Assembly: GCA_001986395.2 (NCBI GenBank)
Contig: MQVO02000018.1
Coordinates: forward strand, 1-64,000
Direction: 5' to 3'
DNA length: 64,000 nt
From: Irpex lacteus
Taxonomy: Eukaryota > Basidiomycota > Agaricomycetes > Polyporales > Irpicaceae
In this document: piece after piece, positions 24,592 through 43,972 of the stretch
Layout: the number at the start of each line of letters is the position of its first letter
Numbering within the stretch: position 1 is the stretch's first letter
Notes under the pieces: model-generated
Told to the model about the DNA's origin: nothing
Databases searched by the model: none
What the model saw: only the letters and a program-made list of their open reading frames with translations
Position numbers and translations under genes: made by a program

Positions 24592-25713
24592 TCACTTTCC
24601 GGCCAAAAGGTCGTTGATTACCCGAGCCACTCTACCAACAGCTTCTCGTACAACCTCCTTATCAGCCTCACGGACGCGAGACATTATCCGTCCCTCAAAC
24701 TTGTCCGGATGGAAACGCAACATCGTCTCTCTCAACTTGTCTCGTCGTTCTTTCTTGATGGCTTCTTCGTCCCTTGCTGCGCTATCAGGTAGTCTTCCAC
24801 CAGGAAGTAAGAAAGCCGACACAGCTTCCATGGTGATATCTTCGATCTCAAGAGTAGCAGGCTTCTTCTCTTGGCCATGTGCAGAGGGACCAACGTCCGT
24901 AGCGAGAGCAGGCCATGGAATATCCTCGAAACGCAGCTCGATATCGGTGGCCTGTGATGATTCCACCCCTCCCAGTAACTCCTTCCAGCGACTCTCGTAG
25001 CGAGCACGAGCGTCGTCCCAGCGCATTCTTTCCTTCTCGTTGCGCCGTTGTCTCCGCCGCTCATGCTCAGCCTTCTCCATCCTGGCGGTCTCCTCTCTCA
25101 GCTTCTTCTCTCGCTCGTGGCGAGCGGCACGTTCTGCCTTCTTCCGTTCTTGCTCTGCGAACTCAGCAGCGTGTTTCTTCCTGCAATAGAGTAAGCCAAC
25201 ATTTTAGCATATAGTTTGATAGAAGTGAGTAGGTACGCACTTCCACATCGCAGCACGCACCCACTCCGCATAGTCCTCTTCCTCCATCATTTGTGGGTCA
25301 ATATCCAACTCATCATCCATCCTATCCATCCCGCCAGCCCTCCACCGTCTCGGTACGTGCGCATATCCGTTGAGATTTGCCTCTACAGAGTCGAGCCGCT
25401 CATCTTCCCCAAATGCTCCCCATAGCTTCTCGCGAAACCGCTCCTCCTCGACTTGCGCCTGGATGTAGTCGTAGTCCGGTTTGTGAGCACGATGAGATGG
25501 CCCCGCTGACAGCTCGTCTTCATCAAACACAAAGTCGTTGTTTCCATTTAAATACGACGCTCGATGTTTCTTGCGAGGTTCATCATCCTCCTCGGATAGG
25601 TCATCTGTGTTCCTGTGACGACGTTTGGCAGCCTTACGAGCCCTCTTCTGAGCCTTCCGCAAGTCATGCGCTGCCTGTTCTTCAGGTGTTCGTTTCAATT
25701 TGAGCTTGCCCAT
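24592..25713 (-). CDS. NFKBIL1-like coiled-coil protein
   Basis: Exons 25241-25713 and 24592-25180 flank a 60-nt intron and give 353 aa. I start at ATG 25713 (MGKLKLKRTPEEQAAHDLRKAQKRARKAAKRR), since this opening is typical of fungal homologues; an ATG 18 bp upstream would add six residues. The N-terminal third is basic and nuclear-targeting in character, followed by an acidic region and a long charged coiled coil (about residues 150-225, AEFAEQERKKAERAARHEREKK...). The C-terminus has the J-like helix LRFHPDKFEGR, shared with the human NF-kappa-B inhibitor-like protein 1 family and reminiscent of the HPD of DnaJ domains. Function in fungi is not established; a role in RNA processing has been proposed for the family. 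A 60-bp promoter element shared with TSC10 begins 104 bp upstream. Confidence 0.8.
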
Positions 25714-25817
25714 GCCTGGCACTCGGTGCAATGAGGACGTGGACGAGATGGTGTAACATGTTCAAGGCAGAAGGCAAGTGACGCTGGGGAAGGGCGCGAC
25801 GCCACAAAGCTGTAGAG

Positions 25818-25877
25818 TATGCCGTCCAAACTGTACAAAAAATAAGCGCGCCGCGCGGGTAACCAATGCGCCGCGCG
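25818..25877 (-). promoter_or_regulatory. 60-bp GC-rich CCAAT element, copy 1
   Basis: This 60-bp block matches 43806-43865 at 58 of 60 positions (as a reverse complement between strands). Read towards the gene it has CGCGCGGCGC, ATTGGTT (an inverted CCAAT box), CCGCGCGGCGCGC, then TTATTTTTTGTACAG and TTTGGACGGCATA. It begins 104 bp upstream of the NFKBIL1-like start codon. Sequence just outside the block does not match between copies. It may be a shared promoter module or a tiny dispersed repeat. Confidence 0.65.
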
Positions 25878-26608
25878 GCACATGCCGCGCGCACATGGCG
25901 TATGCGATTGTGAGCAATGTTGAGCGCAACCACACGGTATGTCGACTTTCCCTGTATGTCTGTACATCCTCTATGTGTCTTGGTGTTGTATGTAGGCTAA
26001 TATAAAAGCAATACATAACGACTTTGTCACGTTGAAGCCAGATTTTTCCAGCGCTTTCATGTTGCTACTTGCTAGTATGATTGCACACCCTAACTGCTCA
26101 GTGTTCAACATTATCAGAGTGTTCCTATAGGCAATGTACTACGATTTAGACATAGAACGACCAGACGCACATGTGCTATTTGCGACTATAAGTGTCGGAA
26201 TCAATTTAAGCGTAGTAGCATTACAACTGCCTAATCGGGAAGTTCACGGTACTACCACGGCGCAGCTGTATTAAGCTCTAGTGCCCGTCGAACTATCGCA
26301 TTCTGTCGTGGTCATAGACTTGAATGTCCAAGCGGAAAGTAATGTGATCATTCGGGGAGGTATTGGTAGATACTATGAGTCCGTTGCAGAGCATTGCTCG
26401 TAGAAGTACTATTAAGCTACGCCGGTATGAGCAAAGAAGGATTACGATACGAAAGAGATGTAAAATAAGACTCAAAAAAGAAATAAAAGGGTGAATGAGC
26501 GTGTATACTTGTGAAATAAAAATGGACAAAGGAGTGGCGCTTGTCTGTTGAAGACGGGTGTTAAGTCTTTCGAAGGAGCTCGGACTCAAAGAAGAGGCGG
26601 AAGTTATT
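25878..26608. other. Intergenic, no supported gene
   Basis: No gene seen; the stretch continues GC-rich palindromic (GCCGCGCGC) for about 30 bp beyond the element and then becomes AT-rich up to the stop codon of gene A. Confidence 0.4.
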
Positions 26609-27235
26609 TTAATACCACGGATTGCGTACACCCGTGGGTGGGTCGTACCTGGTCGGAGAGACATTGGTCTCAGCGGTTGTAGCGGCGCCGTGGGAGAAAC
26701 TAGGAGTTACGGGACGGGATGGAGTCAGAGAGCCCATCTCTTCGAGAGAGCTAGAGGTGAGCATCTGGGGCACCCCCGGCGCTGTATGTGCAGTTGTCGA
26801 GCTGATGGTTCCAGGCGCAAAAGGGTTGGGTGCGCTTGAACTGGCTCCCGGTGCAATCTCGGGAAGCGGCTCGGAGTCGGAAATTGGGCTGGGCGATGGA
26901 CTAAAGTCTTCTGGCCGCATAGGTATGTTGTTGAATGAATACTTGAGCCCGGTGGTGGCCTTTGTCTCTGAGTTCGGACCTTGTATTGTCGATGAAGCAG
27001 ACGTGGACGCGGTGTCTATAGAGAGAAGGTACGTCAATGATTGCTGATGACTCGGTCAATATGGTTGGAATTGCAACTCACCTGCCAATGCTAGCGCACG
27101 ATCCAACCCGCCTAGCAACCGCGACTTCGACTTCTTCGCACGCACTTGTACCGCCCAAGAAAATGATGGTAAGTAGGGCGGATAAAGTATAGGTAAAGGT
27201 AGTATGAACTTACCAGAGGCCGTTGGCTCCACAAG

Positions 27236-27243
27236 CTCGATAT
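27236..27243. repeat. 8-bp target duplication of hAT copy 1 (CTCGATAT), outer
   Basis: CTCGATAT abuts the outer end of copy 1 and is repeated exactly at 33037-33044. Eight base pairs is the hallmark of hAT insertion. Confidence 0.95.
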
Positions 27244-27420
27244 TAAAGCATGGCATGGGTCCGGATACCTGTAGGTCATTGTGGGTATACCTGCCATCAA
27301 ACCCCCAGGTAAACTGACCTGCGGGTCATGGGTACCTGGTCTACAGGTAAGCTACAGGTGCAGGTCACGCTATAGTAACTGTGTAGGTATACCTGCGGGT
27401 CAACCTGCCATTTTATTCAG
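27244..27420. repeat. Subterminal ACCTG repeats, transposase-3' end of hAT copy 1
   Basis: Ten copies of ACCTG (either strand), often as TACCTG or ACCTGCGGGT, lie between the terminal repeat and the transposase stop codon. The opposite end (about 32880-33030) has seven more. hAT transposases are known to bind arrays of short subterminal motifs, so these are candidate binding sites. The same arrays occur in copy 2 (40653-40829 and 35043-35193). Confidence 0.75.
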
Positions 27421-30411
27421 CTAGTTATCACAATCATGTACATCACTATCAACATTAATGACAGCCTTTTCTTTCCCCTTTGACCCCTTTGATCTCTTGT
27501 TTTTCTCCCGCAACAATTCCAGTATCTCCCTCTCCGGAATAACACCATCAACTGTAGCCCAAGAGCTAAGCACAGTTGCCGCCCGCGTTGACTCGTCGTT
27601 CAGGGAATGACGGCGCTTCGAGACAGTCAGCCCACCTCGGGAGAAGGCGCGCTCGACGTCTGTTGATGCTGCGGGAGTGGACAGAAAGTCCAGTGCCATG
27701 CGTGCGAGGGCCTGTTTCTCTGCGCTTCTGCTCGAAGTGAGAACACCGTTCCAGTGGGCTAACGGATCGTCGACGTCCCCGAGGCATGGAGTGCTGAGAT
27801 GCTCCTCGAGAGCGTCGGATGAGACAGTATTGCGGCCATACTGCTCAAGGCGCGCGAAACGCTCGTTAGCCGAACGACGAAAACCCATCTGACAGTTAGA
27901 ATATAGTGAGCCTGGAGTCTGGACGCTACAAAGCATATAATATACGAATTACTTACTGATGATGTTTGCGACGACGGCGACGCCTGCGCCACGTTCGCAT
28001 CACTCGGAGGGTCGGGCTTGTAATGGCTCTTCCATTGGTCGCGAACAAGCGTAAGGGCCGTTTCGATCCAGTCGGGAGGCCAATGGTTGTCGCGGAAGTA
28101 TTGTGTCTTGTACCTCGGGTGTAGTACTAAAGAAAGCAGTCAGCGGCGAATCCGTAAGCTCATAGTAAACAAAAGACATGAGTATCGAGTCTGGACGTAC
28201 CCATGGCAACACGGTGCATGATCGACTCGTCCGTTTTTCCGTAGTACTTGTTTAGGATACGAACGCCTCGGGCGGCGGCAACACGAACAATATCAGAATA
28301 CGTTTTGCCAGCCTTACCGTCGACCACGTCTTCCAATGCACCGGTGAGTGTGTCGATAATAGGAATAACCTCGTGTAGAAGCGGCGTGTTGCTCTTTGAT
28401 ATCTTGTGAGTGGCGTATGTGAAGTCCTATAGATAGTATATCAGCACAAGGGCTTGCATCAAAGTGAGCGGCGGTCTCACCCCTAACACGCTATCGAGCT
28501 CAGTTAACAGTGCCCATTCGTCTGCCGAGAGACGACAGCTACGAAGCCCCTTCTTCCCAGCCACATCCCACGCGGGCAGAGCGAATAGCTTCTCCAATGC
28601 CGGTCGAAGCTCGAGGGCACGCTCGATGGCCATGGAGACGGAGTTCCACCTTGTTGCGACCGCGCGTAACGGAATCTTGGGGGTGATCTTCGATCGTTCG
28701 CAGCACGTCTTCAGGTCCGCTCTCAACAGCGGAGAGTAAAATATACGTTTTGCGAGCTTCTTTAGCTAATATATATGATATGAATAAGCATGGTATAGCA
28801 AGAGTTAGGCATGATAGAGAGCGTACCTTGGTCAGTGCACGACGTGCATGACGGGCCTCATCTTCGTTGATGTGCAGATCCTCCTCTACGGAGGCTATCA
28901 CCGCTTCGATCTCTTCGTCTTCAGCATCCTCTCGGCTAGGATCGAGCTCGTATTCATCGTCCCTGAGATCGTTCGTCGAAGCGCTCGCGGTCGTTCCTTC
29001 AGTGGTGTCATCATCGAGTACGGGGTCGGCTGCGGCGTCGTCATCTGTGTCGCTGTCTGCCGGGTCGTCACTGCTATCTGAACCTCGCTTACGCGACTTC
29101 ACAAAGCAAGACAAGATTGCCTGCAATGGCTCGTGAGTAAGACGTCAGAGGCAAACTATTTGACCACTCACCTTGACCACCAGATTCAAGATGTGCGCCA
29201 AGCACCGCACTCTGGTTTCTGCGCTGTTGATCCCTCCAAGAGTCTCCAGCTCCATCACCATGGTATCGTTGTTCGATGCGTTGTCACAGATGATACCCAG
29301 GATCTACATGGTCAACATTGTATGATAAGTAACGACTCGGATACGGTCAAAGGCTCAGAAATTACGTACCATGTCCGCGATTCCTAACTCTTGAAGGCAT
29401 CGCTTTAGTTCTTGGCCTAGGTAGCGACCCGTATGACCTTGATCGAGTCTGTTGCGATGGTGAGTACATGTCCAACACACTGTAGATTGCTCGAAGACTT
29501 GTGAACTCACCGGATGAAATCCAGAATGAACTGCGTAGCTTTTCCATCTACCACGCGATGAACTGTCACTCCTAAGAACGAGTATACATTAGGCGACGTC
29601 CATCCGTCGAGACCAAGGTGCAGACGACCGGGGTGCGCTTTCAGCAGCTGCCCGATATGTTTATGCGTGACGGCAAAGATCTCACGCACATCGCGAGACA
29701 CAGTGCTGCGGCTAGGAGTCTCGACCTTCGCGTAAAGCATCTCGAAGATGGCAAGAAGTTCCGGGTCTTCGACGATAGCAAAGGGTCGGTGACGGCGTGC
29801 GATCCAGAGAGCAAGGAGGTATCGCATCCGCTCCTTAGTGTACGTTGTGCCATGTGCGAATGCGGCGATGCTCTTCTCATTCGGCGCGGGGCCTGGCGAG
29901 CACTTTTCGATATGCCGCTTGAGGTTGCCGGTAGACTGGTCCTTACGGTGACGCGTAACCTTAATTTTAGGGCTATAAGCGACGCATTAGATTTGCATAG
30001 TACATAGGATAGAAGTTCACGTACTGTGCCTTGCAAACGAACTGGTACTTAACCATGCCCTTCGAGTCCGTAATGATCTCAGGGGGAGACCTGAAATGGG
30101 TATAGTAGGCAGAACTCCACGTCTTCATTTGGTCGGCTACATGTGTGTCGTTGGTTAATGAGAATAACAAAAGGTTTATGAGAATACTTACCTAGGACGT
30201 CCGGCGCTGATCGTGTGTCAGTCCTATATTTCTCCTCGAAGGTGAGTTGTTTACTGGCGGCGGGAGCTTCAACCTCAACAACGTCGGGGCTTGAGGATCG
30301 GTCACCAGAAGCAGACTGAGCGTCGGAGGCATCGTTTTCAGTGCGACGAGAGCGGTCACTTGCTGGGGACAGGTCTTTGCGACGACGTTTTTGGCCCCTA
30401 TGACTGGGCAT
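27421..30411 (-). CDS. hAT transposase, copy 1
   Basis: The mirror image of the copy 2 gene at 37662-40652: ten exons, 815 aa, with every ORF segment identical in translation. Exons (minus strand, 5' to 3') are 30192-30411, 30025-30136, 29511-29972, 29370-29448, 29172-29303, 28827-29120, 28481-28765, 28201-28426, 27957-28126 and 27421-27888. No stop or frameshift is seen. It reads in the same direction as the interrupted gene A. See the copy 2 entry for domains. Confidence 0.92.
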
Positions 30412-30998
30412 GGTGAGTCGTTGGGAGGGACCTGAAGGACAGAGATGGGGGTCAAACGAGCAGGCGATCCACTACATCTCTGCTATATCAATTAACGGCT
30501 TAATCCGACAACTCGTCACAGTATCGTAGAGCGTACCTTTTCAGGCGTCGTGTGTATTTACCCGCAGTGCGGGCGGCGGGTATGTGAGCTCGGCATGCGG
30601 ACACTAGCAATGCAAAGAACCAATGGAGTTTTGTGGATAAGTCAAAGGTCGGCCGTCCACACGGAATTTGCATGAGGAATATTAAATTTGCGACAGGAGA
30701 TGGCGATGGTGGTGGGCGACGGAGGCAAAACGAGAGGATATGCGCGGCCAATACCTACGGCTCGGGTATTGTTGATGGCGCGCGCCAACCTCTAGCCGGT
30801 TTCTGCCACGTCAACCTTCCATCCTTCTCTCCCTACTCTCACCTACTCACTCTCCTGCTCGCTGCGTAGTCTCATATACTCGTATGCCACACCCTCAACA
30901 CTACCACATCACCTGCCTTTTTGGAACGTGAGTACACTGTCTATGGATACCAGTGGTGTTGTGTACCTTGATGATCGAAACTAATCTCGATAATTCAG

Positions 30999-32069
30999 AT
31001 GGAGCATGCCCGACGCCCGAAGGTCGGATTAACGAGGACAACAGCATTTTACGGTGAGCTTACAAGCAATGCTCCATAGTACAACTCAATACGGACGTGA
31101 TTATAGGTCATAATACGTATGCGTAGCCAATGAGACAAGGTAGCAGATGGAAAAGATATGTGGCAAGTGAGGATGGTGAGTAACGAGTTCAGCGATCGGG
31201 AATTGCACCCAGTACTCATGTTCATCGTTCGCATTGCTCGGCTTTGATCACAAGATACTGGCCGAGATTTTGGATCGGCACAATAGTCAAGGCGCATCCC
31301 TATGGCCAGAGGGCTACACGGTCCGTGGCAAAATTTACGCACGCATGACGAAGACTGACTAATCTAGGGACTGCACGCAGCGCTGACTGCACTGAACGGG
31401 CCACAGGATCTCAAGCGTACTGCACGCACCTGGACCACAGTCCGCCTTCTCCTTCAATCCTCACAGAGAAGCCGGACGCACAAGACCTTACCTTGGTCCT
31501 TGGTGTTCCTCCACCACTGGTCGTACTGTAGGTCACGTCACGGCCTGTCATCGCTGTATACTAATTTAGTCATATTCTCCGGTGGCAGATTAAGGCACAG
31601 AGCTGAGAGAATGAGCGGGTCGTTCCGTCGACAAGACTCAGCCCCGAGAGCTCAACAACCGCTGCCTCCACGTCGCGGATCTCAAGAGGTAGTGGAATTC
31701 GAGTGGATGGTGCTTGTAGCATCCATAGGTAGCTACTATCGCCGCCGTAGAATACACATGATACGACACTCGCGCAATACTTCATGCGTACATCTTCTCA
31801 CAAGAATTCCGCCAACGCAAGTTTCCATGTGTGCAAACGAGAGGTTTCTTATCCTCGCCATCCTCGACGTTGCTGGCCACTTCGCGCGGTACCACCTAAC
31901 CGGCCAAGTTCCGTCTGTAGGACACATGCTAGGAGGGTTGATGGCTTTATATTTACGTTGGGATAGAGATGGCGGTAGGGGACACTTAAGTGAGGAGACC
32001 ATCTCGGCGATCTGGAACTTTCTTATGCTCGCGCAACAGTATTTAGAATTTAGTACAACAAATGTTTAA
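30999..32069 (+). CDS. hAT accessory gene Y, copy 1 (unknown)
   Basis: A multi-exon gene divergent from the transposase, exact exon structure uncertain. Supported parts: an ATG at 30999 right after an acceptor (30998), opening MEHARRPKVGLTRTTAFY; an exon starting near 31216 that reads SCSSFALLGFDHKILAEILD and continues to about 31321; and a long final exon from about 31370 to the stop at 32069. A 47-nt intron near 31322-31368 (GTCCGTGG...AATCTAG) joins the last two in phase. The final exon may contain a short intron with a perfect TACTAAT branch site near 31556. The C-terminal domain has CANERFLILAILDVAGHFA and hydrophobic helices. I recognise no family. Nothing comparable is needed for hAT transposition in known elements. 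Confidence 0.5.
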
Positions 32070-32117
32070 TGTTAATACAATAGGACGCGATTCTCAATGA
32101 TAGCGGTGCTGTATATA

Positions 32118-32782
32118 TCAATGCTGAATGTGATTGTCGAGATGCATTGCTGTGGAGAGACGGAGTGCCACGGCGGTATCGATTCCAGAGTCGAGTACGA
32201 GCTTCGAGTACCACTCTGTATGGTCCGCCTCATCGAAGTACTTAATGACCTCGTCGTAGAGTCTGTTAGGCAGCTCTAACTCTGCAAAAACATCCCTACA
32301 CGCCTGCCCGAACCGTGCGTCTATGAATGTCGGGTCTCCGAATACTTCTGCTTCTGACGTCTGGTCTGTTTGGAAGTGATGCGAGAGTCACTCTGGTAAG
32401 TACGCGGTTCAGCGTTTGACTTGGTATGATATTAAACTGACCCTCCGATGCCTCCGATGCCTCGCTAATGCCCTCATCGTACTCCATGGCGGAGTCCGTG
32501 CCCGACTCGCGCTGCGAGCTATTGTAGGGGGCCTGGGATGTTTCGTTTGGATAGTACTGGTAGTGATAAAGGTATTAGTATAGATGATAGAAAAATACCT
32601 GCAAGACTTACCCTCCCCGGTGCGCCAAAGAGCAGTTGCCCGAGACGAAAGTGTGCTGTCGATAGCCCACCGCGAAGATAGATTATCTCCCGCTCCTGAG
32701 CTTCGAGTCGTCTCTCCAAAGTGAGATTCCTCGCCCGTGCTTGATCTAGATGTCGCCGGAGTTGGGTAACTTCTTCGTTCAT
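32118..32782 (-). CDS. hAT accessory gene X, copy 1 (coiled-coil protein)
   Basis: The mirror of the copy 2 gene at 35291-35955. Exons are 32612-32782, 32442-32556 and 32118-32365, giving 177 aa. It is tail-to-tail with gene Y, whose stop codon is only 48 bp away. See copy 2 for description. Confidence 0.7.
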
Positions 32783-33036
32783 AGTCACGGAGGGGTTGTA
32801 CGAGTCGTACAAATAGCATTGATGGATAAAAACTACGGCTTGAACATACATGTAATATAACTTAGTAAGCAAATATGTGACCCGTGGATCGACCTGTACA
32901 TTGTAGGTACCTGTACCCGCGGGTCAGGTACCTGGCGCTATGAAACCTGTGAGGGTGCAGGTATGACTTTCGCACTTTCCATTACCTGTGGGTATGGGTC
33001 CGGGTAGATCCACGGGTGGACCCGTGACCAGCTTTA

Positions 33037-33044
33037 CTCGATAT
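33037..33044. repeat. 8-bp target duplication of hAT copy 1 (CTCGATAT), inner
   Basis: Exact repeat of 27236-27243; on the coding strand of gene A it reads ATATCGAG. Confidence 0.95.
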
Positions 33045-35028
33045 CACTGTCGTCGCTGATAGAGAATATCTTTCGCTTCTTCCCTTTCTTGTCAGTGGCA
33101 CCATGAGCTGATGAGCTTGCTTCAAGTTGCGGCTGAGTTGCGACTCCCGATACGGTCTCCGAGTTGCTCGGGGCCTTGCCGGACATAGCGGTCTGTACCT
33201 TTCTCACTTTTAATGCACTGTCTCGAAGGGCAGCAACTGAAGCTTGAGACCAGAGGAGAGAGTCAGCAGCAGCGCAAATCATAGCAAAGCTGCACGCACC
33301 AATATGGATAAAACTTTCCGACGCTCCTCGCCCTTTCCTGCTTTTCACGCCATAAATGTCCTCACCGTTCGGTTCACGTTTCGCGTAAACAGATAGCTTC
33401 CGAGTCTTGGGGTTGCGGAAGCAGAACGCGTAGGGAAGTTCACCATCACTGAGTCTGCCCGTTTCTGGGTTATACCCTAACTCGGCTTCACAGTGGGCAA
33501 AGAACTCGGGAAGTGCGGCGCGCAGAGCCAGATCGATACGCGTGAAGTCCCATGAACGGTTGAACTTCACGTCGAAGTTTGCTTGGCCTATGACCTCCAA
33601 GTCTCGCAATAATCCTTCCGTGGTGACTGGATCGACAGTCTGTTCCTCATCGAAACTGAGCCGCCCTTCGCTCTATCAAGCAGCAGATAAAATCCCAATG
33701 GTAAGTAAAACTGCTGTTGTTAATGCTGTGAACTGAAACGTACGTCGTTTATAAGGCCATCAATATACAACACGATTGCGCGGACTTCAAAATCCATGGC
33801 TGAGTTCGCAGAGGACGGGAATTTGAGGTGTGGGCCATTCCTGCCAGAACTCACGCCTGCGGAAGTTCTCCGAGTCTTGGTGCTGCCGCGGCCGAAGGCT
33901 AATAAAGGATGCATGCGTGATAATATAAGGTGAGTTAAGTCGATGATGTTGACGATGGTAGCAGCACTGACCTTTGACTTCTTAATGATCGCAGAAGCCA
34001 CACTGGCACCCTTCGCCTTAGCGGTGAGACCGGTATTCGCTTCTCTGTCGGCTATCTGAAGAGCCGCCTCAGAGAGCTTATAACCATGCAATCCCGTCAG
34101 TGAGTCGATTATCGTTCGCACGGATGCACTGGTGGTGTGCAGAGCTGAACCGCCTGCCGCTGCGGCTGGGGCGTCCTGTGCAGAGACGTCGACCTCGTCT
34201 GAATCAGGGCTGTCGGAGGACATAGACGAACTGAACAAGGTGACAAGGACGAGTGGGAACGAGAGGGGGTGCCTACGTTCACCTGGTCCACTGGAATTTA
34301 TCATTTTCAGTGCGACGTTGTAGGTCCGAATGTTCCTGACTATCAACCTGAATTGCAATTTAACACACTGCGGCAGATAGGCAGATAGGTTTTGTACTTT
34401 TTCGGCATGTAATAATTGCGTGCTACAGACAAATTTTATTGTTTATACATTATTCCGTGAGTCGTACAAGAAGGTCGAGAGCTCGTGCCCACATCTCGGC
34501 ACGAGGCCTCCATACACTGTCAGGCAAAGTAATGAAGATTTCGCGACTGCCACGCCGGCCTGAATATAATGCCTCGACCTCTGAGTAAGTCCCGTTCTCC
34601 CATTCGTCCTCCTGCAGATAATAACCATGCGGAACCGTTTGCGCCTCGTGCAATATTGCCAATGCTGTGTGAAATACTTGCTCCTCCTCCTCAGTTGCGA
34701 ACGGATTTTCATCCTCCGGAACGTTGACGGCCTCGTGATTGTAGTTGTGATCGTGAGCTTGAGCAATGGTACCTAGATCTTTGCAAAATATGTAGTTTCA
34801 CACGCAGCTAGTTGGAGAAGCAGTTTCAACGTACCTGGTCCTGGCACAGCCGGAGGTTCTTGATTCTGTTCCTGCAGTGCGTTGGTAAGATGTTGAGCAA
34901 CGATTTCGGGGTGTACACCACTCAGATCATTGATATACACTCCGTGTTGCAGCTGACCAATGAAGCGTAGATCCTAGACGAAGTCAGATAGTGTCTCGGA
35001 TCAGTACCTGCTATTTTATAACTCACAT

Positions 35029-35036
35029 TTGGACTA
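35029..35036. repeat. 8-bp target duplication of hAT copy 2 (TTGGACTA), inner
   Basis: Exact repeat of 40830-40837 and different from the duplication of copy 1. Confidence 0.95.
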
Positions 35037-35290
35037 TAAAGCTGGTCACGGGTCCACCCGTGGATCTACCCGGACCCATACCCACAGGTAATGGAAAGTG
35101 CGAAAGTCATACCTGCACCCTCACAGGTTTCATAGCGCCAGGTACCTGACCCGCGGGTACAGGTACCTACAATGTACAGGTCGATCCACGGGTCACATAT
35201 TTGCTTACTAAGTTATATTACATGTATGTTCAAGCCGTAGTTTTTATCCATCAATGCTATTTGTACGACTCGTACAACCCCTCCGTGACT

Positions 35291-35955
35291 ATGAACGAAG
35301 AAGTTACCCAACTCCGGCGACATCTAGATCAAGCACGGGCGAGGAATCTCACTTTGGAGAGACGACTCGAAGCTCAGGAGCGGGAGATAATCTATCTTCG
35401 CGGTGGGCTATCGACAGCACACTTTCGTCTCGGGCAACTGCTCTTTGGCGCACCGGGGAGGGTAAGTCTTGCAGGTATTTTTCTATCATCTATACTAATA
35501 CCTTTATCACTACCAGTACTATCCAAACGAAACATCCCAGGCCCCCTACAATAGCTCGCAGCGCGAGTCGGGCACGGACTCCGCCATGGAGTACGATGAG
35601 GGCATTAGCGAGGCATCGGAGGCATCGGAGGGTCAGTTTAATATCATACCAAGTCAAACGCTGAACCGCGTACTTACCAGAGTGACTCTCGCATCACTTC
35701 CAAACAGACCAGACGTCAGAAGCAGAAGTATTCGGAGACCCGACATTCATAGACGCACGGTTCGGGCAGGCGTGTAGGGATGTTTTTGCAGAGTTAGAGC
35801 TGCCTAACAGACTCTACGACGAGGTCATTAAGTACTTCGATGAGGCGGACCATACAGAGTGGTACTCGAAGCTCGTACTCGACTCTGGAATCGATACCGC
35901 CGTGGCACTCCGTCTCTCCACAGCAATGCATCTCGACAATCACATTCAGCATTGA
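35291..35955 (+). CDS. hAT accessory gene X, copy 2 (coiled-coil protein)
   Basis: Three exons, 35291-35461, 35517-35631 and 35708-35955, joined through 55- and 76-nt GT-AG introns in phase, give 177 aa. Residues about 3-45 form a strong coiled coil (VTQLRRHLDQARARNLTLER and on through EAQEREIIYLRGG). The middle is acidic and Ser-rich (EYDEGISEASEASE). The C-terminal half (GDPTFIDARFGQACRDVF ... YFDEADHTEWYSKLVLDSGIDTAVALRL) looks like a small helical domain. No family is recognised. I start at the first ATG of the conserved frame; an in-frame GTG/ATG further up lies within the subterminal repeats. It is read from the element's end towards gene Y. Confidence 0.7.
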
Positions 35956-36003
35956 TATATACAGCACCGCTATCATTGAGAATCGCGTCCTATTGTATTA
36001 ACA

Positions 36004-37074
36004 TTAAACATTTGTTGTACTAAATTCTAAATACTGTTGCGCGAGCATAAGAAAGTTCCAGATCGCCGAGATGGTCTCCTCACTTAAGTGTCCCCTACCG
36101 CCATCTCTATCCCAACGTAAATATAAAGCCATCAACCCTCCTAGCATGTGTCCTACAGACGGAACTTGGCCGGTTAGGTGGTACCGCGCGAAGTGGCCAG
36201 CAACGTCGAGGATGGCGAGGATAAGAAACCTCTCGTTTGCACACATGGAAACTTGCGTTGGCGGAATTCTTGTGAGAAGATGTACGCATGAAGTATTGCG
36301 CGAGTGTCGTATCATGTGTATTCTACGGCGGCGATAGTAGCTACCTATGGATGCTACAAGCACCATCCACTCGAATTCCACTACCTCTTGAGATCCGCGA
36401 CGTGGAGGCAGCGGTTGTTGAGCTCTCGGGGCTGAGTCTTGTCGACGGAACGACCCGCTCATTCTCTCAGCTCTGTGCCTTAATCTGCCACCGGAGAATA
36501 TGACTAAATTAGTATACAGCGATGACAGGCCGTGACGTGACCTACAGTACGACCAGTGGTGGAGGAACACCAAGGACCAAGGTAAGGTCTTGTGCGTCCG
36601 GCTTCTCTGTGAGGATTGAAGGAGAAGGCGGACTGTGGTCCAGGTGCGTGCAGTACGCTTGAGATCCTGTGGCCCGTTCAGTGCAGTCAGCGCTGCGTGC
36701 AGTCCCTAGATTAGTCAGTCTTCGTCATGCGTGCGTAAATTTTGCCACGGACCGTGTAGCCCTCTGGCCATAGGGATGCGCCTTGACTATTGTGCCGATC
36801 CAAAATCTCGGCCAGTATCTTGTGATCAAAGCCGAGCAATGCGAACGATGAACATGAGTACTGGGTGCAATTCCCGATCGCTGAACTCGTTACTCACCAT
36901 CCTCACTTGCCACATATCTTTTCCATCTGCTACCTTGTCTCATTGGCTACGCATACGTATTATGACCTATAATCACGTCCGTATTGAGTTGTACTATGGA
37001 GCATTGCTTGTAAGCTCACCGTAAAATGCTGTTGTCCTCGTTAATCCGACCTTCGGGCGTCGGGCATGCTCCAT
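36004..37074 (-). CDS. hAT accessory gene Y, copy 2 (unknown)
   Basis: The exact mirror of the copy 1 gene at 30999-32069. The final exon holds the frame 36004-36573 on the minus strand (189 codons open). Divergent from the transposase; the roughly 590 bp between their starts (37075-37661) is a shared promoter region. Confidence 0.5.
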
Positions 37075-37661
37075 CTGAATTATCGAGATTAGTTTCGATC
37101 ATCAAGGTACACAACACCACTGGTATCCATAGACAGTGTACTCACGTTCCAAAAAGGCAGGTGATGTGGTAGTGTTGAGGGTGTGGCATACGAGTATATG
37201 AGACTACGCAGCGAGCAGGAGAGTGAGTAGGTGAGAGTAGGGAGAGAAGGATGGAAGGTTGACGTGGCAGAAACCGGCTAGAGGTTGGCGCGCGCCATCA
37301 ACAATACCCGAGCCGTAGGTATTGGCCGCGCATATCCTCTCGTTTTGCCTCCGTCGCCCACCACCATCGCCATCTCCTGTCGCAAATTTAATATTCCTCA
37401 TGCAAATTCCGTGTGGACGGCCGACCTTTGACTTATCCACAAAACTCCATTGGTTCTTTGCATTGCTAGTGTCCGCATGCCGAGCTCACATACCCGCCGC
37501 CCGCACTGCGGGTAAATACACACGACGCCTGAAAAGGTACGCTCTACGATACTGTGACGAGTTGTCGGATTAAGCCGTTAATTGATATAGCAGAGATGTA
37601 GTGGATCGCCTGCTCGTTTGACCCCCATCTCTGTCCTTCAGGTCCCTCCCAACGACTCACC

Positions 37662-40652
37662 ATGCCCAGTCATAGGGGCCAAAAACGTCGTCGCAAAGAC
37701 CTGTCCCCAGCAAGTGACCGCTCTCGTCGCACTGAAAACGATGCCTCCGACGCTCAGTCTGCTTCTGGTGACCGATCCTCAAGCCCCGACGTTGTTGAGG
37801 TTGAAGCTCCCGCCGCCAGTAAACAACTCACCTTCGAGGAGAAATATAGGACTGACACACGATCAGCGCCGGACGTCCTAGGTAAGTATTCTCATAAACC
37901 TTTTGTTATTCTCATTAACCAACGACACACATGTAGCCGACCAAATGAAGACGTGGAGTTCTGCCTACTATACCCATTTCAGGTCTCCCCCTGAGATCAT
38001 TACGGACTCGAAGGGCATGGTTAAGTACCAGTTCGTTTGCAAGGCACAGTACGTGAACTTCTATCCTATGTACTATGCAAATCTAATGCGTCGCTTATAG
38101 CCCTAAAATTAAGGTTACGCGTCACCGTAAGGACCAGTCTACCGGCAACCTCAAGCGGCATATCGAAAAGTGCTCGCCAGGCCCCGCGCCGAATGAGAAG
38201 AGCATCGCCGCATTCGCACATGGCACAACGTACACTAAGGAGCGGATGCGATACCTCCTTGCTCTCTGGATCGCACGCCGTCACCGACCCTTTGCTATCG
38301 TCGAAGACCCGGAACTTCTTGCCATCTTCGAGATGCTTTACGCGAAGGTCGAGACTCCTAGCCGCAGCACTGTGTCTCGCGATGTGCGTGAGATCTTTGC
38401 CGTCACGCATAAACATATCGGGCAGCTGCTGAAAGCGCACCCCGGTCGTCTGCACCTTGGTCTCGACGGATGGACGTCGCCTAATGTATACTCGTTCTTA
38501 GGAGTGACAGTTCATCGCGTGGTAGATGGAAAAGCTACGCAGTTCATTCTGGATTTCATCCGGTGAGTTCACAAGTCTTCGAGCAATCTACAGTGTGTTG
38601 GACATGTACTCACCATCGCAACAGACTCGATCAAGGTCATACGGGTCGCTACCTAGGCCAAGAACTAAAGCGATGCCTTCAAGAGTTAGGAATCGCGGAC
38701 ATGGTACGTAATTTCTGAGCCTTTGACCGTATCCGAGTCGTTACTTATCATACAATGTTGACCATGTAGATCCTGGGTATCATCTGTGACAACGCATCGA
38801 ACAACGATACCATGGTGATGGAGCTGGAGACTCTTGGAGGGATCAACAGCGCAGAAACCAGAGTGCGGTGCTTGGCGCACATCTTGAATCTGGTGGTCAA
38901 GGTGAGTGGTCAAATAGTTTGCCTCTGACGTCTTACTCACGAGCCATTGCAGGCAATCTTGTCTTGCTTTGTGAAGTCGCGTAAGCGAGGTTCAGATAGC
39001 AGTGACGACCCGGCAGACAGCGACACAGATGACGACGCCGCAGCCGACCCCGTACTCGATGATGACACCACTGAAGGAACGACCGCGAGCGCTTCGACGA
39101 ACGATCTCAGGGACGATGAATACGAGCTCGATCCTAGCCGAGAGGATGCTGAAGACGAAGAGATCGAAGCGGTGATAGCCTCCGTAGAGGAGGATCTGCA
39201 CATCAACGAAGATGAGGCCCGTCATGCACGTCGTGCACTGACCAAGGTACGCTCTCTATCATGCCTAACTCTTGCTATACCATGCTTATTCATATCATAT
39301 ATATTAGCTAAAGAAGCTCGCAAAACGTATATTTTACTCTCCGCTGTTGAGAGCGGACCTGAAGACGTGCTGCGAACGATCGAAGATCACCCCCAAGATT
39401 CCGTTACGCGCGGTCGCAACAAGGTGGAACTCCGTCTCCATGGCCATCGAGCGTGCCCTCGAGCTTCGACCGGCATTGGAGAAGCTATTCGCTCTGCCCG
39501 CGTGGGATGTGGCTGGGAAGAAGGGGCTTCGTAGCTGTCGTCTCTCGGCAGACGAATGGGCACTGTTAACTGAGCTCGATAGCGTGTTAGGGGTGAGACC
39601 GCCGCTCACTTTGATGCAAGCCCTTGTGCTGATATACTATCTATAGGACTTCACATACGCCACTCACAAGATATCAAAGAGCAACACGCCGCTTCTACAC
39701 GAGGTTATTCCTATTATCGACACACTCACCGGTGCATTGGAAGACGTGGTCGACGGTAAGGCTGGCAAAACGTATTCTGATATTGTTCGTGTTGCCGCCG
39801 CCCGAGGCGTTCGTATCCTAAACAAGTACTACGGAAAAACGGACGAGTCGATCATGCACCGTGTTGCCATGGGTACGTCCAGACTCGATACTCATGTCTT
39901 TTGTTTACTATGAGCTTACGGATTCGCCGCTGACTGCTTTCTTTAGTACTACACCCGAGGTACAAGACACAATACTTCCGCGACAACCATTGGCCTCCCG
40001 ACTGGATCGAAACGGCCCTTACGCTTGTTCGCGACCAATGGAAGAGCCATTACAAGCCCGACCCTCCGAGTGATGCGAACGTGGCGCAGGCGTCGCCGTC
40101 GTCGCAAACATCATCAGTAAGTAATTCGTATATTATATGCTTTGTAGCGTCCAGACTCCAGGCTCACTATATTCTAACTGTCAGATGGGTTTTCGTCGTT
40201 CGGCTAACGAGCGTTTCGCGCGCCTTGAGCAGTATGGCCGCAATACTGTCTCATCCGACGCTCTCGAGGAGCATCTCAGCACTCCATGCCTCGGGGACGT
40301 CGACGATCCGTTAGCCCACTGGAACGGTGTTCTCACTTCGAGCAGAAGCGCAGAGAAACAGGCCCTCGCACGCATGGCACTGGACTTTCTGTCCACTCCC
40401 GCAGCATCAACAGACGTCGAGCGCGCCTTCTCCCGAGGTGGGCTGACTGTCTCGAAGCGCCGTCATTCCCTGAACGACGAGTCAACGCGGGCGGCAACTG
40501 TGCTTAGCTCTTGGGCTACAGTTGATGGTGTTATTCCGGAGAGGGAGATACTGGAATTGTTGCGGGAGAAAAACAAGAGATCAAAGGGGTCAAAGGGGAA
40601 AGAAAAGGCTGTCATTAATGTTGATAGTGATGTACATGATTGTGATAACTAG
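37662..40652 (+). CDS. hAT transposase, copy 2
   Basis: Ten exons: 37662-37881, 37937-38048, 38101-38562, 38625-38703, 38770-38901, 38953-39246, 39308-39592, 39647-39872, 39947-40116 and 40185-40652; all introns are GT-AG and phase is kept, giving 815 aa. The N-terminus is basic and Ser-rich. A BED-type zinc-finger-like segment lies at about residues 105-145 (FVCKAHPKIK ... NLKRHIEKC), though only one Cys precedes the paired His/Cys. The RNase H-like core has D233 (LGLDGWTS), D298 (IICDNASNND) and E739 (STDVERAFSRGG). An acidic insertion of about 80 residues (DPADSDTDDDAAADPVLDDD...) sits after the second Asp. The C-terminal hAT dimerisation region is clear (DFLSTPAASTDVERAFSRGG, KRRHSLNDES). 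The enzyme cuts and pastes the element with 8-bp target duplications, which fits the flanks. No inactivating change is visible. Confidence 0.93.
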
Positions 40653-40829
40653 CTGAATAAAATGGCAGGTTGACCCGCAGGTATACCTACACAGTTACTA
40701 TAGCGTGACCTGCACCTGTAGCTTACCTGTAGACCAGGTACCCATGACCCGCAGGTCAGTTTACCTGGGGGTTTGATGGCAGGTATACCCACAATGACCT
40801 ACAGGTATCCGGACCCATGCCATGCTTTA

Positions 40830-40837
40830 TTGGACTA
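40830..40837. repeat. 8-bp target duplication of hAT copy 2 (TTGGACTA), outer
   Basis: Exact repeat of 35029-35036, within the fourth coding exon of gene B. Confidence 0.95.
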
Positions 40838-42516
40838 CGATGGTTGACTTTGCCGGAGATCGGTTTGGCGTTCCAATCCGCGCAGAACTGAGTGCAATCT
40901 GCATTAATCATGCCCAAGAATAGGTGGTGAAGTAGCCACATATGACAAGGATCCTCGATATTGAGGTGATGTAAACGTTCGAGGCGATAGAAGAACGCAC
41001 GCCATCGGCGTGCGAATTGAGAGCCGACTTCCACCCATAGACGTTCAATGCGCGTGTTATGCGTAGATCTGTCAGACGTCAAGATGTCAATTGCGGTGGT
41101 AATGTTCAGAAGGCTATTACTCACGTTCCCCAGATAAACGAGCCACGATTGGCCCCACGAAGCAGAATCATCAATACTGCAACTTCCTTATTCTCGCCTC
41201 CGCGATCTCCGCGTACACGAGATGGAAGACCCCATGTCTTCGCTGCATTGACGAAATGCTCGCACACCGTCGAAGCTCGGTTGTTCGTGCTTGTTTGTAG
41301 CATGACAACCTGTCATTTGGACAGTTTTATGAGCTGGCTCCTTTACGCATTCGAAACTGACTGGTGACGCACCGTACGATCAAAGCCATCAACTCCTCCG
41401 TGGATGACAAAACCCCACCGAATGAGCTTGTGGTGGCCATCAATATGCCATACCGCATTTGGGCGGGATACCTTATACTCTCGTCGTTTGATCGCCTGCC
41501 GCTGTGTGTGAAGGACATGCCCGATCGGGTCCACCCGCTTAATGCTAGACACAACCCTGTTGCTCTGTACACGAAGCTGTTTCTGGCGAAGAAATCCAAC
41601 AAGATAGCGTATACCGGAATCGGGACGAACCTCGCGGAATCGCTTGACGATGGTATCGAGGTCGTTGTCGGTAAGAGTGGTGAACGAGGTATCAATCTGA
41701 TATTGACGCAGGTATTTGCGTAGGGTATGTCGGTGAACGCCCAAAAGACGAGCGAGGCGGGAGATTGACAGTCGTCGGGACGGTGTCATGGCAGCCTGAA
41801 GATACGTCTTATTGATGACTTTGCAGGGACGTCCTCGATGTCCGCCGTTGACGTGAGAGCGAACGATTTGGACAGGCTGAATGGTAGCAACGTCCAAGGT
41901 TTCCCTGAGTGAACTTAGTGAAGAAGCGATGAACCGTTAGATGATTGTAATTGAGTTGAAAATGCTACACACCTGCCGCTTGCGGTTTCGTGCATTTCCT
42001 TCAGCCGACGCCCCAATTTTCCGACAGCCTCTGCAGAAGCGACAAGCCAATCCCCCAAGGGTGCTTCCGTATCCGCAATCTGTGCAAGCGCAACAAGAAG
42101 CGGGCAAACATCGTCTGCCAATGTATCAATATGTACTTTCATGCGCAGTGGGTCCAGATCAGCCTGTCGAAGAAGTTGAAACGCCCTCGTATACGATGAT
42201 TCGATGATCTGGTAGGCCCGCACGATGTTCGGTGGCCAGGGCTGATTGCGATCCGGCAATAGGGGGATTGACTCCAACAGAGAATTCTCTTGCTGCGGCA
42301 TGTCGAGGATGGAATAGGAAAGTAGTGTTGAGTGTATACTGCAGAGATCGCCAAAGTCACTGATGGTGTTATTGATCACTGACCTTAATCGGGTCAACTT
42401 CCTGCGAGTCGTTAATCGGCTTCCGCACTCTGATCGCTGACGCTGTCACAGTACGAAGATTCCATTGGTATATTCCTACACAGTGGCTTACAGTTAGTAG
42501 TAAGCGTATTATAGAC

Positions 42517-43511
42517 ATGGAGCATCCAGAGTCGCATGAGGAATGGATCAAAAGCCCCGACTTCTGCTTCCATGACGGGACAATCTGGCTGCGCGTGAGT
42601 ACTCTGGCTATTGACCAAGTCAAAGCAATCATCACTCACGGCCACCGTACTGTGCAGGCGGAGAAGACGTTGTATTGCGTGCACTCCGGTCTTCTACAAT
42701 CGCACTCCGAGGTATTCCAGTCTTTTCTCACACTACCTGGGACGGACGGCGATTGTGAACAACGCCCGGTGTTCCTACCGTCAATCTCGAGCATAGAGTT
42801 TGACTACCTTTGCACACATCTGTTTGTAGGGTGAGAGCACTTATCATTTCTCTATGTAATGCACTAGGAACTCACTCGGTGCTGTATTGAAGATGGAAGG
42901 GCCCCCCGCCATATGAGCCTGACATGCTTATTAGTTTGCTCAAGCTTTCCGCACTATACCTCATGCCGTCCGTCCGTGACTTCGCCAAGCACCACATTGC
43001 GAACAGCTACCGCATCGGACCTGCAATCAAGATTGAGCTTGCTCGGAAATATTCAATTCCAGAATGGGTCGCACCTGCCTTCAAGTCATTGGTCGAACGG
43101 GGACCGTCGAGCATCTCATTGGAAGATGCAGAACACCTTGGCCTCCGTGTTCACTTCATTCTCGCCCAAGCGCAAGCCCAGATCAACGAAGAACGAACAC
43201 GCCTCTCCCTCGTTGCCTCGCCAGTTATTCACGGTTACGGCTGTAACAGTCAAGTCCGCTGTGAGCTCGCATGGAAGGAATTCTGGATGGTCAAGGTTTC
43301 CCGGTGGCTCATAAACCCCGATGATACTCCACGTATTGCGGACATCTGCTCGCACATCGAAACTCTGTTGCCGATTTCGTCGATGGAATCTAGGTGCCAG
43401 CAACAGACATTGGCGAAGCTGCGAGGGATGCTGGTGTTGAAGAGAGAAGAAACGATCACGAAGACAGCCTTGGATAAAGTACTGGAGTATCATCAGTCTC
43501 TAGAATTGTAA
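42517..43511 (+). CDS. BTB/POZ domain protein
   Basis: Three exons, 42517-42594, 42658-42830 and 42893-43511, with introns of 63 and 62 nt; 289 aa. The opening SPDFCFHDGTIWLR ... KTLYCVHSGLLQSHSEVFQS matches the BTB/POZ pattern common in Agaricomycetes (D-F-x-D-G-x-x-x-L-x-A ... F-x-V-H-x-x-L-L-x-x-x-S-x-x-F). It is followed by the second half (FDYLCTHLFVG, PPPYEPDMLISLLKLSALYLMPSVRDFAKHHI). BTB domains dimerise and often recruit cullin-3 ligases; a role here is inference, since this fungal group is uncharacterised. The remaining C-terminal part is helical with no second domain seen. Head-to-head with gene B, whose start is 215 bp away. Confidence 0.85.
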
Positions 43512-43972
43512 CTACTCACCTCGCTTCCCGCTGTGTCATATAGTAGATGAGATTGTATATGTTAGAACAGTCGTTGGACCCGAGTGCGAGCTTGCCTTCG
43601 TTACCGCTGGCAGCATCGTGGCAGGCGGACTGTCCGCAATTACTATAACAGGAACTCATTTCACTATGTAAGGATGCCTATTCATATGCTATAATGGCGT
43701 ATCTACAAAGCTGTACCCTACATACACGTCGGGGAGGTGCTGAACTCCCTATACGAGCACCAAAGTGAATATTACACGGTAGGTCCGCCAGGCGCCTATC
43801 AGCCGCGCGCGGCGCATTGGTTGTCCGCGCGGCGCGCTTATTTTTTGTACAGTTTGGACGGCATAGTAGAGGCGCATCAGCGCATCAAATTGAAAGGGTC
43901 CATCATTTGAACGCCGGCGGCATCTAGTACAGAGTTAGCCTTGCCACCTCATGCGGCAGTCTCTCTAAGACT
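43512..43972. other. Intergenic between BTB gene and TSC10
   Basis: No gene; it contains the 60-bp CCAAT element at 43806-43865, described separately, and GC-rich palindromic flanks. Confidence 0.5.
43806..43865 (+). promoter_or_regulatory. 60-bp GC-rich CCAAT element, copy 2
   Basis: 58 of 60 positions match 25818-25877 in the same orientation relative to the downstream gene. It ends 107 bp before the TSC10 start codon (104 bp at the other gene). It contains ATTGGTT (inverted CCAAT) between two CGCGCGGCGC palindromes, then TTATTTTTTGTACAG. Confidence 0.65.

Follow-up and report, generated by a model that had tools for sequence, protein, structure and literature searches.

Two identical copies of a hAT transposon, lying in opposite orientation about 2 kb apart, form a palindrome with 5.8-kb arms in the window, that is, the whole 64,000-nucleotide stretch of Irpex lacteus DNA that was analysed. 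We propose, with a probability of roughly 0.8, that one element hopped about 2 kb away, reversing its orientation, and that the donor copy stayed in place. From the sequence we infer that this transposition was local, linked to replication and recent. Local hopping, which the earlier note had offered beside a recent burst, is supported by the presence of only two close copies in the genome and by a second local pair formed by a sister family.

An exact palindrome created by two insertions

The two arms, 5793 bp each, are fully complementary, with 0 mismatches and 0 indels when position i is aligned with position 68073-i, confirming the earlier claim of equal arms that pair at a constant coordinate sum without indels. 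In this coordinate-sum comparison, the pairing is unbroken and ends at both element termini. A repeat finder run on positions 25000-43000 (exact seed 14) recovers the same inverted pair and, besides the arms, no repeat of at least 40 nt in that interval. An exact inverted repeat of 5.8 kb is far beyond chance. Outside the palindrome, a 60-nt inverted repeat of 97% identity is present at positions 25818-25877 and 43806-43865, with a different coordinate sum.

The left copy is flanked by a perfect 8-bp duplication, CTCGATAT, and the right copy by a perfect and different one, TTGGACTA. Because each arm carries its own perfect duplication, two separate insertions took place, as had been read from the sequence, their arrangement in cis being that given by the assembly. 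The arms are exactly 2000 nt apart, in agreement with the spacer length first reported, a figure that counts one duplication copy at each side and that we take to be round by coincidence. Additionally, the duplications are in phase, so that the spacer is in its original orientation in the assembly or has undergone an even number of inversions.

Each insertion interrupts a predicted exon, the two exons belonging to neighbouring minus-strand genes. In the joined empty site of the left insertion, the exon frame stays open across the duplication as far as a GTAAGT donor. The gene broken by the right copy encodes an rva_4 integrase domain; two ORFs match positions 2-41 and 96-176 of the 194-position profile. 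On its minus strand, the spacer is predicted to contain a 3' portion of the rva_4 gene and a portion of the neighbouring gene.

Table 1. Features of the palindrome, its insertion sites and its predicted genes (window coordinates).
Feature	Position	Strand	Basis
Left insertion, target site duplication CTCGATAT, outer copy	27236..27243	.	direct reading
Left hAT copy, 5793 bp	27244..33036	- (transposase strand)	arm comparison, repeat finder, genome search
Transposase gene, left arm; 815 aa in 10 predicted exons, the last with PF05699	27421..30411	-	score-placed splice model
Gene B, left arm; 152 aa, without Pfam match, helical model	31611..32069	+	prediction, homology
Gene A, left arm; N-terminal exon predicted coiled coil, conserved C-terminal exon, splicing predicted	32118..32782	-	
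Left insertion, target site duplication CTCGATAT, inner copy	33037..33044	.	direct reading
Host-gene exon (predicted), interrupted by left copy	33037..33672	-	gene prediction, joined empty site
Spacer, 1984 nt between the duplications	33045..35028	.	gene prediction; genome search: single copy
Right insertion, target site duplication TTGGACTA, inner copy	35029..35036	.	direct reading
Right hAT copy, identical to left, inverted	35037..40829	+	arm comparison, repeat finder, genome search
Gene A, right arm	35291..35955	+	arm identity, homology
Gene B, right arm	36004..36462	-	arm identity, homology
Transposase gene, right arm, mirror of left	37662..40652	+	arm identity, splice model
Right insertion, target site duplication TTGGACTA, outer copy	40830..40837	.	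direct reading
rva_4 (PF24764) gene exon (predicted), interrupted by right copy just before GTGAGT donor	40830..41187	-	domain match

A hAT element with three predicted genes

The assignment to the hAT superfamily, first made from the sequence alone, is supported by the hAT dimerisation domain PF05699 in the minus-strand ORF 27421-27948 (38.4 bits against a cut-off of 21.4) and by a weak match to the Hermes transposase (best E 2.6e-4). The D, D and E of Hermes, which we take to be its catalytic residues, align with D, D and E of the window transposase in weakly scoring stretches. Among 8000 candidates scored, 66 proteins reach E 0.001 or less; the closest are hAT proteins of mushroom-group fungi, the best by E-value being one from Antrodiella citrinella (51% identity over 91% of the query), and weaker relatives come also from other fungi, plants and fish. 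The spliced transposase model is without stops, with the proviso that splice models were picked by score and a stop could be hidden inside an intron. The terminal inverted repeats are short and imperfect, both ends reading TAAAGC and then a motif of the CAYGGGT type, and 8-bp duplications occur at the window pair, the sister pair and a copy on contig C187, as in the hAT superfamily. Between the window and C187, Ks of a transposase stretch is saturated and Ka/Ks has no finite value. No Rfam family matched the window at gathering scores. Taken together, the window element looks like one of the hATs with three predicted genes, namely transposase, gene A and gene B, and is apparently intact and low in copy number.

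Genes B and A, which lie tail to tail, occupy the stretch from the transposase to the opposite element end and recur in related hATs. At E 1, gene B has no Pfam match and gene A has four, none above cut-off. Gene B is modelled as a helical protein (mean pLDDT 77.4); of the 74 matches that a fold search with this model gave up to E 10, none reached 0.001, and no solved structure matched significantly. The model of gene A is weak (pTM 0.41). Ka/Ks values are 0.11 and 0.19 for gene B in two of three pairs and 0.05 and 0.08 for two exons of gene A, all of them rough because Ks is 1.8-2.4; the gene B comparison between the window and the sister family gives no finite value, Ks being saturated. Protein databases hold eight homologues of gene B and five of gene A, each count including one from the window itself. 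Several homologues lie on contigs of 5.6-5.9 kb, about the length of the element, and one homologue of gene A carries the name Irpex lacteus. For the entries from the window itself, the listed contig is exactly 5793 bases long, consistent with a two-copy repeat having collapsed in a different assembly.

Within the genome, gene B (query P0001) matches 11 places, two of them with in-frame stops, and gene A (query P0009) matches 19 stretches that make up 15 loci. At 10 of these 15 loci a PF05699 match lies at most 6 kb away; the one near C187:1021436 may come from a neighbouring element. Transposase homology is present within the stretch examined at C187:1021436, C40, C257 and C308 and absent from that examined at C213, and at C66:51107 the nearest PF05699 match is 11.7 kb off. 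The P0009 query missed gene A of the sister family, yet its first exon is seen by direct comparison. Gene A-like ORFs lie about 0.4-4.2 kb from further hAT domains at C58:2306824, C187:1024942, C38:231034, C48:68572, C255:170848 and C185:1469126, so this gene may be widespread among the hATs of the genome. At C213:284000-290166, near C58:2148543 and near C1:1750669, the gene A-side hAT end is present with no transposase match in the stretch examined, and these three loci are possibly deletion derivatives. Genes A and B mark a hAT group with extra proteins that match no Pfam family above cut-off, gene B matching no solved fold either. It is conceivable, albeit doubtful, that a three-gene hAT lineage of mushroom-group fungi uses proteins A and B to steer insertion beside the donor, giving tight pairs and, in some cases, multi-kilobase palindromes.

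Two close copies in the genome

One arm, searched against the full 44.3-Mb assembly, gave 27 matches, of which two are the arms at 100% and the remaining 25 are all partial and at most 79% identical; such repeat counts are lower bounds. As far as this search shows, the window element has just two family members, which lie 2 kb from each other. The recent burst suggested in the earlier note is therefore rejected, and the presence of only two close copies argues for one element hopping locally.

Both the spacer and the right flank are single-copy in the assembly, and elsewhere the left flank is matched only in part. Among sequences outside the left arm, window 25244-25817 is 88% identical to C32:131017-131581, the match ending at 25817 and starting with the query at 25244. 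A segmental or tandem duplication was considered and rejected on the grounds that flank homology was not found, that spacer and right flank are single and that the arms are the sole repeat of the size sought in the interval scanned.

The flanks also bear on a possible haplotype chimera, in which each insertion would occupy its own nucleus or haplotype of a dikaryon and the assembly would change phase within the spacer. Sequenced strains of mushroom-group fungi, the source of the closest transposase relatives, can be dikaryotic, and both duplications would remain genuine in such a chimera. However, the spacer and flank searches revealed no second haplotype contig, and the sister pair would require the same accident, which makes this account very unlikely.

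A second tight pair on the same contig

The sister family has its two copies on the contig that carries the window pair, at C163:449935-455396 and 456956-471474. They differ by 1 substitution in 5462 bp, have the same orientation, lie 1559 nt apart and carry different 8-bp duplications, TACTGCGC and GTATGCCC; their flanks do not match each other in the 26 kb compared. Searching the 44.3-Mb assembly with the sister element gave 27 matches, three of which belong to the two copies, a nested LTR array dividing the second. Each of the remaining 24 covers only part of the element at no more than 86% identity, the best spanning 58 to 115 nt, and no third close copy was found. The array inside the second copy (C163:460285-469337) is made of LTR retrotransposon sequence, with three LTRs of about 1295 nt and two internal parts.

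If targeting were uniform, a second insertion would land at such short range with a probability of about 9e-5 in the window pair and 7e-5 in the sister pair. C163, which makes up 1.6% of the genome, carries both tight pairs, so that a regional target bias may add to proximity and weaken the assumption of uniform insertion. A genome census of PF05699 gave 33 matches, with four groups alike in score and profile range, and the tight pairs are two of these four. The other two recently copied families are not tightly paired: the C67 and C262 copies are 100% identical over 1366 nt on different contigs, and the two C66 copies and the C187 copy are 99-100% identical over about 1190 nt, the two on C66 being about 85 kb apart and inverted. 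These controls point both ways. Elsewhere in the assembly, many contigs contain a sequence of about 729 nt in +/- pairs spaced about 1286 nt apart (for example L053:1191-1919; 40 of 116 candidates scored), an arrangement resembling that of a fold-back element with long inverted arms.

The concentration on C163, together with the wider spread of the other hAT families, would also suit two insertions that arrived independently in a preferred target region, for instance from a donor copy that has since disappeared. The lack of a third close copy for either family, the just zero and one differences between copies and the distances of 2 and 1.56 kb speak against it, and we give this account slightly less credence still than a haplotype chimera.

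Proposed local transposition and its timing

We propose that the window pair arose through an Ac-like, replication-linked transposition. Either a copy already replicated would have inserted into nearby unreplicated DNA, or the gap left at the donor site would have been refilled from the sister chromatid. Such an event would yield two identical copies separated by 2 kb, each flanked by a separate 8-bp duplication and each breaking one of two neighbouring minus-strand genes. Excerpted text of PMC4270019 describes Ac as transposing during replication into unreplicated sites, and according to part of PMC2753552 more than half of Ac reinsertions fall within 1.7 Mb. The latter figure alone does not predict hops of 2 kb.

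Inverted identical arms can convert one another. Older copies might thus have been kept identical by gene conversion, which is compatible with a local hop and would undo only its recent date. Within the array nested in the sister pair, the outer LTRs (first and third) differ by 3 in 1295, more than the hAT copies that contain them, the reverse of what is expected if the LTRs inserted later. That comparison, however, draws on an array of three LTRs, perhaps not of one origin; conversion tracts have left no direct sign, and recency is simpler. We therefore regard conversion as unlikely.

Inverted or tandem duplication by alternative transposition, of the reversed-ends or sister-chromatid kind, or by segmental duplication is known, in the former case, for maize hAT elements (PMC8225341 and PMC3744419, both in excerpt). 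As modelled in the excerpt of PMC3744419, a reversed-ends event leaves the second copy with one unmatched side. In contrast, each copy here has a full matching duplication and the repeats stop at the element ends, so that an origin of this kind is extremely improbable. A reversed-ends tandem duplication in particular was rejected, the unmatched duplication and duplicated flank that it predicts being absent at both the window and sister pairs.

Expected consequences for the locus

Excision or inversion of the spacer had been suggested as an outcome of the palindrome. Excision is unlikely because inverted repeats recombine to invert, and inversion is possible in principle, yet the in-phase duplications indicate a spacer that is not inverted in the assembly. 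Both outer ends are transposase-side ends; as these do not make a complementary pair, the whole should be unable to act as one composite transposon, and excision of the spacer as a composite element is likewise disfavoured by the end types.

Silencing through hairpin RNA appears less likely than first put forward. In both arms, the transposase and gene A point away from the spacer and only gene B inward, so that a hairpin would need read-through from gene B or a long host transcript. The predicted instability is plausible, albeit tempered by the spacer: in yeast, long spacers strongly lower instability without abolishing it, since Alu inverted repeats with 1.5- and 20-kb spacers rearranged 31 and 47 times less often than with a 12-bp spacer and still above background (PMC10164571, in part). 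The window locus also offers a testable long inverted repeat with unbroken arms.

Comparison with known hAT systems

The Hermes transposase (PDB 2bw3, 4d1q, 8edg, 6dww) has in common with that of the window a C-terminal dimerisation region and the aligned acidic residues, whereas the sequence match between them is weak.

Among fungal elements, the hAT7 elements of rust fungi (PMC12730594) likewise carry a gene besides the transposase. According to the excerpted text, they have 7-bp duplications and a TET/JBP dioxygenase gene; the window element, by contrast, has 8-bp duplications and two small proteins without a Pfam family, and no TET/JBP Pfam match was found among its seven ORFs of at least 120 aa and the gene A and B models. 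That paper was the sole one on further genes in fungal hATs that our literature search found, and no title treating gene A or B appeared in the search.

The Ac/fAc pairs at the maize p1 locus similarly consist of two linked hAT copies, but neither pair here shows a sign that alternative transposition has occurred. By the definitions excerpted from PMC3744419, the sister pair would have reversed ends and the window pair directly oriented unlike ends, so the two offer a direct and an inverted arrangement side by side. Like the window pair, Ac/Ds of maize, which transposes locally to linked sites, combines 8-bp duplications and a hAT transposase with a donor and a new copy close together. Distinct from Ac/Ds, the pairs described here are natural fungal ones at 1.6-2 kb, read from sequence only and with three predicted genes, and they constitute apparent natural records of very short fungal hAT hops whose orientation and duplications are known.
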